Shown: piece after piece, positions 25,626 through 31,677 of the stretch
Position numbering within the stretch: the first letter of the stretch is position 1
Layout of the letters: the number at the start of each line of letters is the position of its first letter
Assembly (NCBI RefSeq): GCF_013004105.1
Contig: NZ_CP053085.1
Coordinates: 2,294,001-2,358,000 of the forward strand
Length of the DNA: 64,000 bases
From: Gemmatimonas groenlandica
Lineage (GTDB): Bacteria > Gemmatimonadota > Gemmatimonadetes > Gemmatimonadales > Gemmatimonadaceae
Direction of reading: 5' to 3'
The notes under the pieces: model-generated
Told to the model about the DNA's origin: nothing
Database searches by the model: none
Seen by the model: only the letters and a program-made list of their open reading frames with translations
Made by a program: the position numbers and the translations under genes

Positions 25626-27350
25626 ATGACGCTTCACCGGAAATCTACCGACGACGTTGGCCGACGCGACTTTCTCAAGCGGCTGGCCGTGTCGGCGCCG
25701 ATCGTGTGGGCCGCGCCGGGTTGTCTGGCGGTTCGAGCACACAGATCGCGTACGGATGCCGACGAACTCGTCGCCGACGAACTCGTCGCCGACCTGGTGA
25801 TCATCGGCGGTGGTCTCGGCGGCTGCTCGGCGGCGCTAGCGGCGGCGAAACGCGGCCTCCGCGTGATCATGACGGAAGAAACGGACTGGATCGGCGGACA
25901 GCTCACTCAGCAGGCGGTGCCGCCCGACGAGAATGCGTGGATCGAAACGATCGGCGGCACGCGCAGCTACCTGGCGCTACGGACCGGCATGCGCGACTAC
26001 TACCGTACGCAGACGCCGTTGACCGCGCGCGCCAAGGCCAACCCGCGACTCAATCCCGGCAACTGCTGGGTGTCGCGGATCGGGTGCGAGCCGCGCGTTG
26101 CGCTCGCCGTGCTCGAAGCCATGCTCGCGCCGTATGTGGCGAGTGGACACGTGCGCATCCTTCGCCTCCATGCGGCGGTAGCGGCCGATGTGGACCGCGA
26201 CCGCGTGCAGGCCGTGCGTGTGCGGCAGCGCGAGACCGGCCGCGACATCGTGCTCCGTGCTCCCTACTTCGCCGACGCCACCGAACTCGGCGACCTGCTG
26301 CCGCTTACGCGGACGGAGTATGTCACCGGCGCGGAGTCCACCGCGCAGACCGGCGAGCCGCACGCCAAGCGCGCGGCCGAGTCGGAAAACGTACAGGCCT
26401 TCACGATGTGCTTCGCGCTCGAACATCGCAGCGGCGAACATCACGTGATCGATCGCCCGAGCGACTACGCCTTCTGGCGTGACCTCGCGATCCCGGCTGC
26501 CGACGGCGTGACGTATCGCTTGCTCAGCTTTGACGAACCGGCGAATAAGCGCATCGGCTTCGATCCTGAGCGGCGTACCGGATACTGGTCGTATCGTCGC
26601 GTGATCGATCGCGATCTGTTCACGCCGAAACCTTCGGACGATGCGCGGTATCGACATGACGTGAGCATCGTGAACTGGGGGCAGAATGATTACTCGTTTG
26701 GATCATTGATCGACGTGAGCACCTCCACGGCACAGCAGCACATCACGCGGGCGAAGGCGCAGAGCCTGTCCCTGCTCTACTGGCTGCAGACCGAAGCCGC
26801 ACGGCCCGATGGCGGCGCCGGGTGGCCGGGCCTTCGCCTGCGCCCCGACGTCCTGGGCACCGACGACGGCTTCGCGAAGTATCCCTATATCCGCGAAAGC
26901 CGTCGCATCGCCGCCGAGTTCACCGTGTGCGAGCAACACGTGACCACGGAATCGCGACCGAACGCCACGCGTGCCGCCGATTTCCCCGACAGCGTGGGCA
27001 TCGGGCACTACAGCATGGACCTGCACCGCACTACTCGCGGCGACTACGGACGCTACGGCGCGACCTACCCCTTTCAGATTCCGCTGGGGGCGCTGCTGCC
27101 GACACGCATGGAGAACCTGCTGCCGGCGTGCAAGAACCTCGGCGTTACGCACCTCACGAACGGCTGCTATCGCCTGCATCCGATCGAGTGGAATATCGGC
27201 GAGAGCGTGGGGAGTCTGGTGGCGTTCTGCTTGGCGAGGCGCTGCGTGCCGCGTGCGGTGCGGCAGCAGACGCCGCTGCTTCAGGACTTTCAGCGGGAGC
27301 TCGAGCGCGACGGCGTGCCGCTACAGTGGCCGCGCGAGTTGCCGCGGTAG
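25626..27350 (+). CDS. Tat-exported FAD-dependent oxidoreductase (FAD_oxidored family)
   Basis: 574 residues. The twin-arginine signal GRRDFLKRLA (about residues 12-21) followed by a hydrophobic stretch predicts export of a folded flavoprotein. The FAD motif VIIGGGLGGCSAALAAAKRG is near residue 58, followed by ETDWIGGQLTQQ, the mark of the PF12831 group. The C-terminus has LPACKNLGVTHLTNGCYRLH and PIEWNIGESVGSL, also typical. Substrate is unknown; relatives are found in polysaccharide and xanthan-type degradation loci. A perfect 15-bp duplication after the Tat region gives DELVADELVAD. Confidence 0.85.
   Translation: MTLHRKSTDDVGRRDFLKRLAVSAPIVWAAPGCLAVRAHRSRTDADELVADELVADLVIIGGGLGGCSAALAAAKRGLRVIMTEETDWIGGQLTQQAVPPDENAWIETIGGTRSYLALRTGMRDYYRTQTPLTARAKANPRLNPGNCWVSRIGCEPRVALAVLEAMLAPYVASGHVRILRLHAAVAADVDRDRVQAVRVRQRETGRDIVLRAPYFADATELGDLLPLTRTEYVTGAESTAQTGEPHAKRAAESENVQAFTMCFALEHRSGEHHVIDRPSDYAFWRDLAIPAADGVTYRLLSFDEPANKRIGFDPERRTGYWSYRRVIDRDLFTPKPSDDARYRHDVSIVNWGQNDYSFGSLIDVSTSTAQQHITRAKAQSLSLLYWLQTEAARPDGGAGWPGLRLRPDVLGTDDGFAKYPYIRESRRIAAEFTVCEQHVTTESRPNATRAADFPDSVGIGHYSMDLHRTTRGDYGRYGATYPFQIPLGALLPTRMENLLPACKNLGVTHLTNGCYRLHPIEWNIGESVGSLVAFCLARRCVPRAVRQQTPLLQDFQRELERDGVPLQWPRELPR
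25761..25790 (+). repeat. 15-bp perfect tandem duplication
   Basis: GACGAACTCGTCGCC is present twice in direct succession (25761 and 25776), in frame, in the linker between the Tat signal and the FAD domain. Confidence 0.95.
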
Positions 27351-27637
27351 GCCGGCATTCACTTGAACTGCGTGGTGGGCCAGCGCGCCGTACGCGTACG
27401 CTCTCGCCGGCGCCGGCGCGTTGGATCGGGCTGCGCAACACCGCAGCCTATGGAGGCGCGTTGGGACGAAATGATCGAGTGTAAAGCGTGGCAGGGTTGC
27501 GGAGTCGCGAGCCAAATGGGATTCTACGCTACGCTCGCAACGTGAATTATGTCGGCGTCGATACGTCGGTCGGTTGAACGGGCGTTAGACCCCGAAAGTA
27601 GTGTTGCTGCTGGCCGCGGTTTCAATCGGAGAGCTCA
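27351..27637. other. Gap with a cassette-boundary-like GTTAGAC
   Basis: This 287-bp gap holds no convincing gene. Near its end, GTTAGAC at 27584-27590 in the context GAACGGGCGTTAGAC matches the integron core site GTTRRRY. It is the exact complement of GTCTAAC at 28247, as expected for the two ends of one gene cassette. I could not find a matching RYYYAAC half-site upstream of it, so a complete attC to the left is not demonstrated. Confidence 0.4.
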
Positions 27638-28219
27638 ATGGCGTTTGACGCGTCGCCCTTTGTTTTCATTCCGTTCTTTGCGGTTACGCTGTCCGTAGGC
27701 GTCGGTTCATCGATCGCCCTCGTGCGCTACTTGCTGTGGCGTCGAACCGCTACAGCGCGGATGGTCGCCGGATGCTGCGGATCGTGTGGAAGCAGCCTCG
27801 GATTCACGGCGACGTACAACGTGACGGGTATCCCTGTGTGCCGTTCGTGCGCGAATGGGCTCCGTCGCAAATTGGGCGGGTGGATGCTTGGCGCTGCCGC
27901 AATGATCTCCGCCCTGCTACTGGTCTCATCGACCGCGTTCGTGGCTGATCTACTCATCGATGGGGGGCCGGCATGGCGATGGTGGACCAAGAACTCGCGC
28001 GCCTGGGTCGTGGTCATCCCTGCCTTGACGGTCTTCGCTACCGCCGCGACCGCAATCGGACTCGGTCGGATTGCCAACAAGTTGGCGGCGGCACGCGAGA
28101 TGGCGCGGCTACGTAATGGAAGCGACTTGCCACTACTCGCGCGCGTGTTGGCGTCGTTTGAGTTGCCCACGCAACCGACAACTTCTGTGAGCTCTCGCTC
28201 TACGGAGGATGAACGTTGA
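27638..28219 (+). CDS. Membrane protein with zinc-ribbon loop, unknown function
   Basis: 193 residues with a good ribosome site (GGAG, 6 bp before ATG). Membrane helices lie at about residues 10-32, 82-105 and 122-143. Between the first and second is a CxxC...CxxC pair (CGSCGSS and CRSCANG, about residues 48-73), a zinc-ribbon-like treble on one side of the membrane. The tail is polar with Ser/Thr. I do not recognise the family. It occupies the position of a cassette gene: its 5' leader begins 48 bp after GTTAGAC, and an attC-like element begins 28 bp after its stop. Confidence 0.7.
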   Translation: MAFDASPFVFIPFFAVTLSVGVGSSIALVRYLLWRRTATARMVAGCCGSCGSSLGFTATYNVTGIPVCRSCANGLRRKLGGWMLGAAAMISALLLVSSTAFVADLLIDGGPAWRWWTKNSRAWVVVIPALTVFATAATAIGLGRIANKLAAAREMARLRNGSDLPLLARVLASFELPTQPTTSVSSRSTEDER

Positions 28220-28246
28220 GGAGCGGCTCGACTGGTCCCAGGTTTG

Positions 28247-28372
28247 GTCTAACGAACTGCTGCTGCTGGCAGTGCGAGGCGGTGTGCGGCAGGCGGTTGC
28301 CGTGCTGGCGCACGGCGCCCGTCCGGCCGCACTTTATTGGATGCGCTGCAGCAGAACGCTGAGGCGTTACGC
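28247..28372 (+). repeat. attC-like recombination site (candidate)
   Basis: The 126-bp element starts GTCTAAC (fits RYYYAAC) and ends GTTACGC (fits GTT, with one departure from GTTRRRY). Its ends pair: TAACG at 28250 with CGTTA at 28365. Inside, CTGCTG...CAGTGC on the left pairs with GCGCTGCAGCAG on the right through a 4-nt bulge, and the centre holds another hairpin (GCCGTGC/GCACGGC). Its first 43 bp recur at 28950 with 36 identities. Length, imperfect palindrome and end motifs are what integron attC sites look like. A rival reading is a duplicated coding fragment, because both copies also translate similarly. Confidence 0.5.
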
Positions 28373-28394
28373 ACACCAACTTGAACTGCTTACG

Positions 28395-28937
28395 ATGAGC
28401 CTCGTTTCTGATCCCGGTCTGCGCGCGGCATCACGCGAGTCTGATCATCGATTGCTCGCCGCTGGGCGCGCTGCAGTGACGACGTCGGAAACCGCAAAGG
28501 AAACCGCGCGGGCCCGTCGCGGCCGCATTCGATTCGTCTACGGCAGTCTGTTCGTCGTGTCCGCGCTGCTCGCGCTCCGTGTGCTCGCATCGGTGCTCGC
28601 TCAACCGCTCGAGGTCGTCGGAGCTGCTCCCGTGCCCACGTGGCAGGTCCAAGTGCGCACCAATACCAATGCGCCGGGGATTGTCTTGGCGTACGGGCCA
28701 GAGGTCGGCGTCCAGTTGCTGCGCATTCCCGGGCGCGAAGCGAGTGCAACGGAGCCGCGCGTGATTCCCGCGCGCCTCGCTCGCGGGGAGCTTCACCTGA
28801 TCACGCTCTCGCTCAACTCGTTGCATGTGGATGCCCCCGGTGCGCCAGGCACGGGCGTGGTGCGCTTGAGCGCAAGCTCTCCGATCATCACCCTCTTTCA
28901 GTCGCCGACCATGTCGGGCGTGCGAACTGGCTGGTGA
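28395..28937 (+). CDS. Single-pass membrane protein of unknown function
   Basis: 180 residues from the ATG at 28395. The frame stays open to an ATG at 28209, but that one overlaps the previous gene, has GGAGG directly abutting it, and would translate the attC-like element. Residues 1-48 are polar and charged, a membrane helix lies at about 52-72 (FVYGSLFVVSALLALRVL), and the rest is extracytoplasmic and beta-rich (VIPARLARGELHLITLSL). I do not recognise it. It fits as the second cassette gene: it begins 22 bp after GTTACGC and ends 13 bp before GCCTAAC. Confidence 0.6.
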   Translation: MSLVSDPGLRAASRESDHRLLAAGRAAVTTSETAKETARARRGRIRFVYGSLFVVSALLALRVLASVLAQPLEVVGAAPVPTWQVQVRTNTNAPGIVLAYGPEVGVQLLRIPGREASATEPRVIPARLARGELHLITLSLNSLHVDAPGAPGTGVVRLSASSPIITLFQSPTMSGVRTGW

Positions 28938-28949
28938 GCGGACGCGGGT

Positions 28950-28992
28950 GCCTAACGAACCGCTGCTGCTGTCAGCGCGATTCGGTGTGCGC
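28950..28992 (+). repeat. Second copy of the attC-like left half
   Basis: GCCTAACGAACCGCTGCTGC and following bases match the start of the element at 28247 over 43 bp (36 identities, no gaps). GCCTAAC fits RYYYAAC. A convincing complementary right half is missing; the only downstream GTT core-like sequence is GTTACGC at 29143, which would make the site 200 bp long, beyond the usual range. It may be a truncated or interrupted site. Confidence 0.5.
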
Positions 28993-29009
28993 TCAACATT
29001 GTCGCCTGT

Positions 29010-29177
29010 CTAATCATCGCTTCCGGCTTCTTCGCCCTGATTGACTAGCTCGGCGACCTCGTCTTCTCCGATCGTGTCCATTTTGAGCCGACTATTCTCG
29101 GTCTCTGGATCGGTCGCTGGCTCATGGAGCGGGAGCCGAGAAGTTACGCTGTAGCCGTTTTTCTCTGGAGCGACCAT
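29010..29177 (-). CDS. Possible small acidic protein, antisense to neighbours
   Basis: 55 residues from ATG at 29177, preceded by GAGG 4 bp upstream. The protein is polar and strongly acidic toward the C-terminus (GEDEVAELVNQGEEAGSDD), without Cys or hydrophobic segments. Such composition resembles small inhibitors or antitoxins, but nothing more can be said. Its start codon overlaps the start of the + strand gene at 29176 (CATGAT), so the two may be alternatives rather than both real. Confidence 0.35.
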   Translation of the reverse strand: MVAPEKNGYSVTSRLPLHEPATDPETENSRLKMDTIGEDEVAELVNQGEEAGSDD

Positions 29178-29430
29178 GATCCTCGCCCCCGTTTCACTGG
29201 TACTTCTTGTCATGATCGGTATGCGCCCGACCGTGCGGTTCGTCGGTGTTGATCTCGCGCACCTGTCCTGGCCCGTGGTCAAGGAGCAGGAGGGATACCG
29301 TGCGGTATACAAGCTGCTGGTGTCGCCCAGCGGCGGTCCGCCTCGGTCGACTCGCGACGTGTTGCGGCGAGCTCATCCTATTGCGTTCGTCCCGCAACCG
29401 CCCCGTTCGTCGCGGGAATGGCTAAATTGA
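29176..29430 (+). CDS. Possible small membrane-anchored protein
   Basis: 84 residues from the ATG at 29176, with GGAG 5 bp upstream. Residues 1-16 are hydrophobic (MILAPVSLVLLVMIGM), then a soluble, Arg/Pro-rich part. Third-position GC is high, as in neighbouring genes. The family is unknown. If the preceding GTTACGC at 29143 is a cassette boundary, this would be the third cassette gene, without a recognisable attC after it. Confidence 0.45.
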   Translation: MILAPVSLVLLVMIGMRPTVRFVGVDLAHLSWPVVKEQEGYRAVYKLLVSPSGGPPRSTRDVLRRAHPIAFVPQPPRSSREWLN

Positions 29431-29481: not shown

Positions 29482-31677
29482 GTGAGCCAGCCAAAGATTT
29501 GCCCGCGATGCGGCGAGGCATACGACGACGTTGTCGACTTCTGTGCGAAGGACGGCACGCGACTCGTGCGCGGTGCGCCGTCGGTGGACCTGATCGGTAC
29601 CGTGATCGCCGATCGGTACCGCATCGTGTCGCGCATCGGCGAAGGCGGCATGGGACAGGTTTACCTCGCGGAACACGTGCGCATGAAGCGCAAGAGCGCG
29701 ATCAAGATCATGCGCCCTGCGCTCGTGCACGAGGTCGAATCGGTACAACGCTTCACGCGCGAGGCGGAGAATGCCAGCCAACTCTCGCACCCGAACATCG
29801 CCGCCATTTTTGACTTTGGCGAGAGCGCAGAGGGCGTGGTGTACCTGGCCATGGAATACATCGACGGTCATCCGTTCTCCGACGTGCTCGAGCGCGAGGG
29901 CGCGCTCCACCCTGAAGTGGCCGCCGACATTATCGGACAGGCGGCCGACGGGCTGCAGGCGGCCCACGACCTTTCGATGCTGCACCGCGACATCAAGCCC
30001 GACAACATCATGCTGGGCACGCGGCCGGATGGCACGTACCTCGTCAAGCTGGTGGACTTCGGCATTGCGCGAGTGATGGGGGGCAGCGACCAGAGGATGA
30101 CGCGCACGGGCTACGCCGTAGGCACGCCGCAATACATGTCGCCCGAGCAACTGGCGGGTGACACGCTCGACGCGCGCAGCGACCAGTATTCCTTGGCCCT
30201 CGTCGCGTTCTCGGCGCTCACGGGCAAACAGGCGTTTTCCGCCGAGTCCACGAAGGAGTCGCTGATTCAGCGGCTCACCAGTCGTCCGCAATCGCTGCGT
30301 ACCGCGCGCGAAGGTGTGGAGTGGCCCGATACGCTGCAAGACGTGTTCAACAAAGCGCTGGCACCGGATGCGACCGAGCGGTATCGGACCTGCACCGAGT
30401 TTGCCGAAGCGCTGTCTGTGGCGATCAACAGCATGACGCCGACGCAAACCACCGAGCTGTATCGCCACGCGCTTGATGCGCGTTCCGCCAGTATGGTGGC
30501 ACGCACACCCAGTGGCGCCGCCGCGCTGGCGGCGGCGTCTGGGGAGCGCGTCGTGGTGACGCGCAGCGATGGCACCAATACGGTGGAACGGACATCGACG
30601 ACCGGTGAGCGCGTTGTCAATCCGGGGAGTGTCCCGCCCTCGCGGTCCCGCATCCCGATGATGGTGGGCGGCCTGCTGGTTGCCGGCTTCGCCGCCGTGG
30701 CGTTTGGTCTGCGCAACAACGGGGAGGCGTCCGCCGCCGGCGTCGCGGGGATTCTCAGTGACAGCAGCAAGCCGATGGCCGTGGCAGGCACGGCGAATGC
30801 CGCCGCCGACACGCTGGCGTTGACGCAGGATAGCGCCGGCGCCGGCGCTGCCGTAAACCCCTCAACGCGCACCGCGGCGCCCACGCTGCCTGTGTCGCCC
30901 AAGCCAGGCACCGCATCGCCGACTGCGGCCGGTGGTGCCGCCACGTCGGCGAAATTGGCCAAAACCAAAGCCGACTCCACCCGTGCGGCGGCCGCGAAGC
31001 GCACCAAGGCCGTAGAGGACAGCATCGCGGAGGTCGCTGCCGCGCGAGCACGCTATCCTGATGCCCCGTTGCGCGCCCTCATTCAACGCGGCATCGATGT
31101 CAAGGCGCATGTGGTGCGCAACAACGACCTGCGTGTCGTCGTCATGCCGACACCGATGTTCGTGGCGCGCGCCGAACAGGCAAAGGCGTGGAAGGACGCC
31201 AATGTGCGGGCGGACGGCAGCCGGTACGACGCCGCCGATCCGATTGAACGGTGGACAGCATGGAATACGCTAGTGAATGCACGCCGCGCGGTCTACGTGA
31301 TCGAGGTTGCTCCCGATCGCACCCCGTACCCGTCCATCGAGCCGGAGCGCATCATCGACTTCAAGAAGGGTGATGTGATGAGCGTTGAGGTTCTCCGCGA
31401 CGGCGCGGCGGTCGCGCTGGAGAATCCGGCACAACTACCCGCCGTCCTCAACGGCACCGCGCATCAGGCCGAAGGGAAGAAGGTGTTCAACAGCTACGTG
31501 GCCACGGTACCGGCGAGCGCCTTTGCGCCACGTGACGACGGCAAGATGCCACGCATCGAGGTACTGGTCACCGACGCGACGCGCGGCGGCGGGCCGGCGC
31601 GGATCGCGCTGTCTGACGGCCTGGTCAAACGATTGTACAACGAGTTTGCTCCGTGGCGTGACGCGTTGGCGCGATAG
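29482..31677 (+). CDS. Ser/Thr protein kinase with N-terminal zinc ribbon and exported C-terminal domain
   Basis: 731 residues from a GTG. Residues 7-25 form a zinc ribbon (CPRCGEAYDDVVDFC). Kinase domain about 45-305: GEGGMGQVYLA, AIKIM, HRDIKPDN, DFGIA, GTPQYMSPEQ, all intact. A juxtamembrane region follows, then one membrane helix (about residues 394-412, MVGGLLVAGFAAVAFGL), an Ala/Thr/Pro linker, a Lys/Ala-rich helix, and a C-terminal domain of about 200 residues with no family that I recognise (RVVVMPTPMFV, NARRAVYVIEVAPDR). The ribbon plus kinase pattern occurs in several soil bacteria; the outer domain is the likely sensor. The gene stands alone, 51 bp after the small-protein island. 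Confidence 0.9.
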   Translation: MSQPKICPRCGEAYDDVVDFCAKDGTRLVRGAPSVDLIGTVIADRYRIVSRIGEGGMGQVYLAEHVRMKRKSAIKIMRPALVHEVESVQRFTREAENASQLSHPNIAAIFDFGESAEGVVYLAMEYIDGHPFSDVLEREGALHPEVAADIIGQAADGLQAAHDLSMLHRDIKPDNIMLGTRPDGTYLVKLVDFGIARVMGGSDQRMTRTGYAVGTPQYMSPEQLAGDTLDARSDQYSLALVAFSALTGKQAFSAESTKESLIQRLTSRPQSLRTAREGVEWPDTLQDVFNKALAPDATERYRTCTEFAEALSVAINSMTPTQTTELYRHALDARSASMVARTPSGAAALAAASGERVVVTRSDGTNTVERTSTTGERVVNPGSVPPSRSRIPMMVGGLLVAGFAAVAFGLRNNGEASAAGVAGILSDSSKPMAVAGTANAAADTLALTQDSAGAGAAVNPSTRTAAPTLPVSPKPGTASPTAAGGAATSAKLAKTKADSTRAAAAKRTKAVEDSIAEVAAARARYPDAPLRALIQRGIDVKAHVVRNNDLRVVVMPTPMFVARAEQAKAWKDANVRADGSRYDAADPIERWTAWNTLVNARRAVYVIEVAPDRTPYPSIEPERIIDFKKGDVMSVEVLRDGAAVALENPAQLPAVLNGTAHQAEGKKVFNSYVATVPASAFAPRDDGKMPRIEVLVTDATRGGGPARIALSDGLVKRLYNEFAPWRDALAR

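Follow-up and report, generated by a model that had tools for sequence, protein, structure and literature searches.

The working model of an integron holds one intI, one attI and one array. In the sedentary chromosomal integron of the Treponema type, intI is transcribed toward attI (PMC3607928). Clusters of attC sites that lack an integron integrase are termed CALINs, and the sections of the literature drawn on here describe Xanthomonas examples at conserved loci (PMC12444791). CALINs as such, their capacity to be mobilised in trans, attG sites and the conservation of CALIN positions are all known from the same sections and from two further reports (PMC12444791, PMC8618304, PMC12901181).

The locus described here lies in a window of 64 kb (the whole stretch of DNA analysed) from Gemmatimonas groenlandica. 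The island at 27417-28991 is an integron cassette array without an integrase of its own, and it is best read as a platform headed by attI that carries two captured cassettes, with no intI alongside. No integron integrase was found inside the 64-kb window, and where a complete integron has intI linked to attI and cassettes, a FAD oxidoreductase gene adjoins instead. In window coordinates, the features are:

25626..27350, + strand: left flank, chromosomal gene of a FAD-dependent oxidoreductase (PF12831)
27417..27588, + strand: orphan attI-like site, from the attI sequence model; ends in core GTTAG; paralogue of the intI-adjacent attI (4064776-4064946)
27584..27590, + strand: core site GTTAGAC (R box) with crossover G|TT, from the identity step versus the intI platform
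27585..28366, + strand: gene cassette 1, from homology with the first cassette behind intI
27638..28219, + strand: cassette 1 ORF, 193 aa, predicted membrane protein
28247..28372, - strand (bottom strand modelled): attC of cassette 1 (attC1), from covariance model and fold
28367..28991, + strand: gene cassette 2, from DNA homology with a pond MAG; recognisable extent stops within its truncated attC
28395..28937, + strand: cassette 2 ORF, 180 aa
28950..28991, - strand: truncated attC of cassette 2 (attC2), R''-L'' side only, from an nhmmer match and a direct repeat
29176..29430, + strand: 84-aa ORF, no family
29482..31677, + strand: right flank, serine/threonine protein kinase gene (PF00069)

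An earlier, sequence-only reading proposed an integrase-less cassette cluster at this place, and that proposal holds: attC is genuine, and each of the two cassettes is also present in another integron array. Its starting point, GTTAGAC at 27584-27590 and GTCTAAC at 28247-28253, is present, but the pairing of the two as ends of one cassette was loose reasoning, as GTCTAAC is the R'' of attC1 and cassette 1 lies between the G|TT crossovers at 27584 and 28366. Since the window contains 32 GTTRRRY and 34 RYYYAAC, the two 7-mers by themselves are weak evidence. The palindrome at 28247-28372 is a different matter. This 126-bp element has eight paralogues in the genome, with 82-93% identity; they form two clusters at distances of 1.7-2.2 Mb on the 5.18-Mb contig that also carries the window. 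The covariance model trained on those eight paralogues, from which the window site was excluded, recognised 28246-28373 on the bottom strand of the window (126.6 bits; E 8.8e-32, and 3e-30 genome-wide), and the bottom-strand fold of 28247-28372 was 3.5 SD better than that of shuffles. Among 37 attC sites of the window genome, its relatives and the pond MAG, 94.2% of the pair cells were standard and 29 of 38 pairs had double-sided changes, versus at most 53.8% and 18 pairs in a control with slid partners; the alignment of the 37 sites was fitted to the covariance model and thus leans toward the modelled structure. The R'' of attC1 (GTCTAAC, 28247-28253) fits RYYYAAC, and its R' (GTTACGC, 28366-28372) is one base away from the GTTRRRY consensus. 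The minimum-energy fold of attC1 itself deviates from the consensus structure and is weaker than the folds of its paralogues. The Rfam search returned nothing useful, and matches to TAACGAACNGCTGCTGC at 3 mismatches did not outnumber those of the reversed control, thus the short repeat by itself is not diagnostic. A chance palindrome with repeats unrelated to integrons could draw on the commonness of GTTRRRY and RYYYAAC; the covariance score, the paralogues in two other clusters and the cassettes common to other arrays refute it, and its probability is practically nil.

The half-repeat reported at 28950-28991 is likewise present (35/40 ungapped) and is matched by the attC profile over profile positions 2-42 (nhmmer, E 1.6e-6). 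This right-hand site was rightly described as incomplete, since the attC is truncated after about 42 bp. In the right flank past 28991 no recognisable attC was found, and the ORF at 29176-29430 yielded neither attC nor relative nor family and is not supported as a cassette.

The left-most site had been taken for an incomplete attC and is in fact a paralogue of attI. The sequence left of 27584 is collinear, to its very end, with the region from intI to the first cassette, and none of 2000 dinucleotide shuffles aligned as well. A genome search with the intI-linked attI (G000) returned copies at 4465690-4465860 (78%) and 4490614-4490783 (73%), each heading a cassette run without integrase. The attI sequence model built from these three sites, with the window excluded, matched 27417-27588 with 41.2 bits (E 1.6e-11 locally, 5.8e-10 genome-wide) over model positions 2-172 of 173. 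The island therefore begins, as an attI platform does, with a homologue of the cognate attI that ends in the core beside the first cassette, and this full-length site at the left end marks it as an attI platform, not a stray insertion. Off-target insertion of a cassette by IntI at a chance genomic site of the attG type, the usual account of some CALINs, has been described in the cited parts of PMC12901181 and PMC12444791 and would suit an island so distant from intI; as the left flank matches attI across about 170 bp and is no short chance site, it is largely refuted here and we give it hardly any credence.

Altogether, there are four strong and two weak attI-like sites in the genome, six in total, versus one intI. 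Both weak sites, 4595703 and 3583956(-), keep the 3' core, and behind one of them there is an attC match in the right orientation. Behind the weak site 4595703 (L130:3621-5365), an ORF of 345 aa without Pfam family, a possible cassette, is followed by a Phd/YefM-type antitoxin gene; such genes are common integron cargo. The attI core pattern, which was derived from the same six sites, finds with up to 2 mismatches those six only in the whole genome and gives zero matches in the reversed control. The window attI is the most diverged among the four strong copies. Most sites of the window genome are placed after the 3' end of a co-directional gene, whereas in relatives this placement is ambiguous. 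The attI measures about 170-210 bp and has a repeated motif near both ends, TTAGACTGCAG in G041 and TCGGTCGAGC in the window genome; these repeats are perhaps extra predicted IntI binding sites by analogy with DR1 and DR2 of attI1. It was also considered that the attI unit is a cassette between two GTTAGAC cores, and this was dropped because the homology between G041 and G009 extends about 28 bp further upstream.

The suggested genome search for intI gave a single integron integrase gene, at 4063604-4064674, 1.74 Mb from the island, which scores 441 bits with TIGR02249 (cut-off 265) and accounts for the sole genome match above that cut-off, at 4063730. IntI aligns end to end with 2A3V, an integron integrase of solved structure, and the alignment takes in the catalytic region as well as the extra segment of IntI, so that the gene is intact-looking by alignment. 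intI is transcribed toward attI, and intI, attI and the cassettes all have the same direction. Within the genus, intI is found in 18 of 30 genomes. No intI remnant was found near the orphan attI sites examined, and the genes upstream of these sites are unrelated (FAD oxidoreductase, sodium/solute symporter, BlaR1/TonB protein), which together favour an origin of orphan attI by attI copying rather than by intI loss. We infer that the orphan sites probably originated as copies of attI.

Orphan attI loci are also found in relatives. With the attI of the complete genome G041 as query, three copies were found in G041, four in G009 and several in each of G016, G013, G004 and G005, and the orphan copies examined mostly have attC sites behind them in the right orientation and no intI nearby. 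Three loci, two of them orphan and the third that of intI, have orthologous flank and attI in G041 and G009, and the homology stops at the attI core each time; at one of the two orphan loci, both genomes have a single cassette in common further in. One orphan locus is common to four species (G041, G009, G016, G005). There, G016 and G005 have 98.0% identity over the 200 bp that lead up to the core and no homology over the next 300 bp, which is, judged from the alignment, cassette turnover at an attI without linked integrase. In the draft genome of G005 (99% completeness), two orphan attI sites (L165, L166) both lie near contig ends, and no integron integrase above threshold was found in this draft. 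These observations bear on the question whether the island is the relic of a second complete integron, in which an intI once beside the window attI was deleted and service in trans is unneeded. An attI without intI, its divergence and the cut attC2 agree with such a history; on the other hand, no orphan site examined has an intI remnant nearby, and since orphan loci, themselves without intI, are common to several species while their cassettes differ, exchange continued without a linked integrase. We regard a relic as unlikely, if still worth considering.

Cassette exchange is also indicated by the window itself. From the core GTTAGAC at 27584 to attC, cassette 1 shares 97.3% identity with the cassette that comes first after intI (from 4064942). 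The attC sites of the two copies are 89.3% identical, below the cassette body, and past the attC core the surroundings are unrelated. Left of G|TT the identity between window and intI platform is 63.6% (shuffle maximum 56.8%), and right of it 97.3%; this step is as expected if a cassette was exchanged site-specifically between two old attI paralogues. A segmental duplication, or ectopic homologous recombination, that moved attI and cassette 1 from the intI platform as a single piece would explain why their order is identical at both places. However, a single event predicts one identity level, whereas the identity changes from 63.6% to 97.3% precisely at the crossover, and the homology stops at the attC core; a later conversion tract that ends by chance at the core is possible but contrived. 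Such a transfer is, in our estimate, very improbable.

The coding differences between the two copies of cassette 1 comprise 7 synonymous and 5 non-synonymous changes. The protein has CxxC-type motifs and 97% protein identity to the second copy in the genome; it has no Pfam or NCBIfam family, and outside its own genome only distant relatives were detected (298 genomes, phylum sample). The cassette 2 protein has one predicted membrane-spanning stretch and no significant family match. Cassette 2 recurs in the pond MAG contig JAIXTI010000170.1 with 77% protein identity, where three attC matches adjoin, and its DNA homology with that contig (81% across 28374-28969) extends from near the cassette start to the R'' of attC. 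A relation between cassette 2 and a protein encoded on the 4465690 platform was considered and dropped (E 0.012, short stretch). Elsewhere in the genome, a 312-bp stretch with 86.5% identity is common to the intI array (L065, G000 4087857-4088168) and the 4490614 platform (L067, 4493827-4494138), where it overlaps a HIT-domain gene; this may be a further sign of cassettes in two platforms. An IS110-family transposase unit of 1200 bp is 99.9% identical between L064 (G000 4069690-4070889) and L066 (4465854-4467053), with a third, partial copy in L067 (4491423-4491605; 92.9%). All three start exactly at a GCGTTAGCAAC core, after attC, after orphan attI and after another attC, respectively, and the unit is either an insertion sequence targeting these cores or a cassette common to three platforms.

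As for the chromosomal surroundings, the FAD oxidoreductase gene ends 67 bp before the attI start. Its orthologues in relatives stand without attI and without cassettes alongside, and no platform behind this gene was found in any other species compared; other genes occupy the site there, so there is no clean empty site to compare. Homologues of the window genes at 55.5-60 kb directly follow the FAD gene in relatives, and in the window about 28 kb (27351-55498) intervenes between them, with the cassette island at the left edge.

Taking these data together, we consider it likely that the island is an integrase-less platform, composed of an orphan attI and two cassettes, that is served in trans by the single distant IntI; many stores of cassettes at separate places may thus depend on one enzyme. 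IntI expressed from the distant intI locus would act in trans at the orphan attI, where it would recombine the folded bottom strand of the attC of a circular cassette with the double-stranded attI at G|TT, and the insertion would put the cassette beside attI. Excision by IntI would proceed through recombination between adjacent sites, and cassettes would thereby be common to the array linked to intI and to several platforms with orphan attI. Anatomy and comparison indicate that IntI probably acts on orphan attI in this manner, and we infer that the window site may still be usable. Several findings stand against service in trans: the window attI is just 63.6% identical to the intI-linked attI and the attC1 fold is weaker than those of the paralogues; attC1 (89.3%) is less conserved than the cassette body, which a single clean transfer leaves unexplained; G005 shows turnover at orphan attI, yet its draft yielded no intI; and the FAD gene has a platform behind it in none of the other species compared. 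With the most diverged of the strong attI copies, a weakened attC1 fold and a cut attC2, the window platform has a partly decayed look, and it may be a platform in decay.

For the genus as a whole, we lean, somewhat less firmly than for the window locus, toward integrons as distributed systems, in which one integrase exchanges cassettes among several attI platforms inherited vertically without intI, and some CALINs are attI-headed outposts, neither debris nor off-target insertions. If true, one integrase would have, in the conserved orphan attI sites, several independent places of storage and expression at different positions, and CALINs at conserved positions would have a concrete origin. Conserved orphan attI heading CALINs, multiple attI and a Gemmatimonas attI were not found in the open-access literature, and as this search was of limited scope, the novelty of orphan-attI platforms is provisional.

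The intI-linked platform of the window genome resembles the Treponema type in that intI, attI and cassettes follow one another in one direction, and differs from it, with its one attI per integron, since up to six attI-like sites accompany one intI (PMC3607928). As in the Xanthomonas CALINs, which, according to the cited sections, a functional IntI can mobilise in trans, attC cassettes are situated away from intI at positions common to related species, whereas here a paralogue of the cognate attI heads each cluster and those sections report no attI (PMC12444791). The window cluster has no intI nearby, as a CALIN should, and unlike usual CALINs it has one complete and one truncated attC, below the default threshold of at least two. 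Insertions at attG also place cassettes outside the main integron; attG sites, as characterised in the cited parts of PMC12901181 and PMC12444791, are divergent from attI and attC, whereas the window site is paralogous to attI from end to end. Finally, displaced attI ends are known that lie off their normal place and still recombine; those are situated behind a cassette gene in one array, whereas here whole attI sites head separate arrays.
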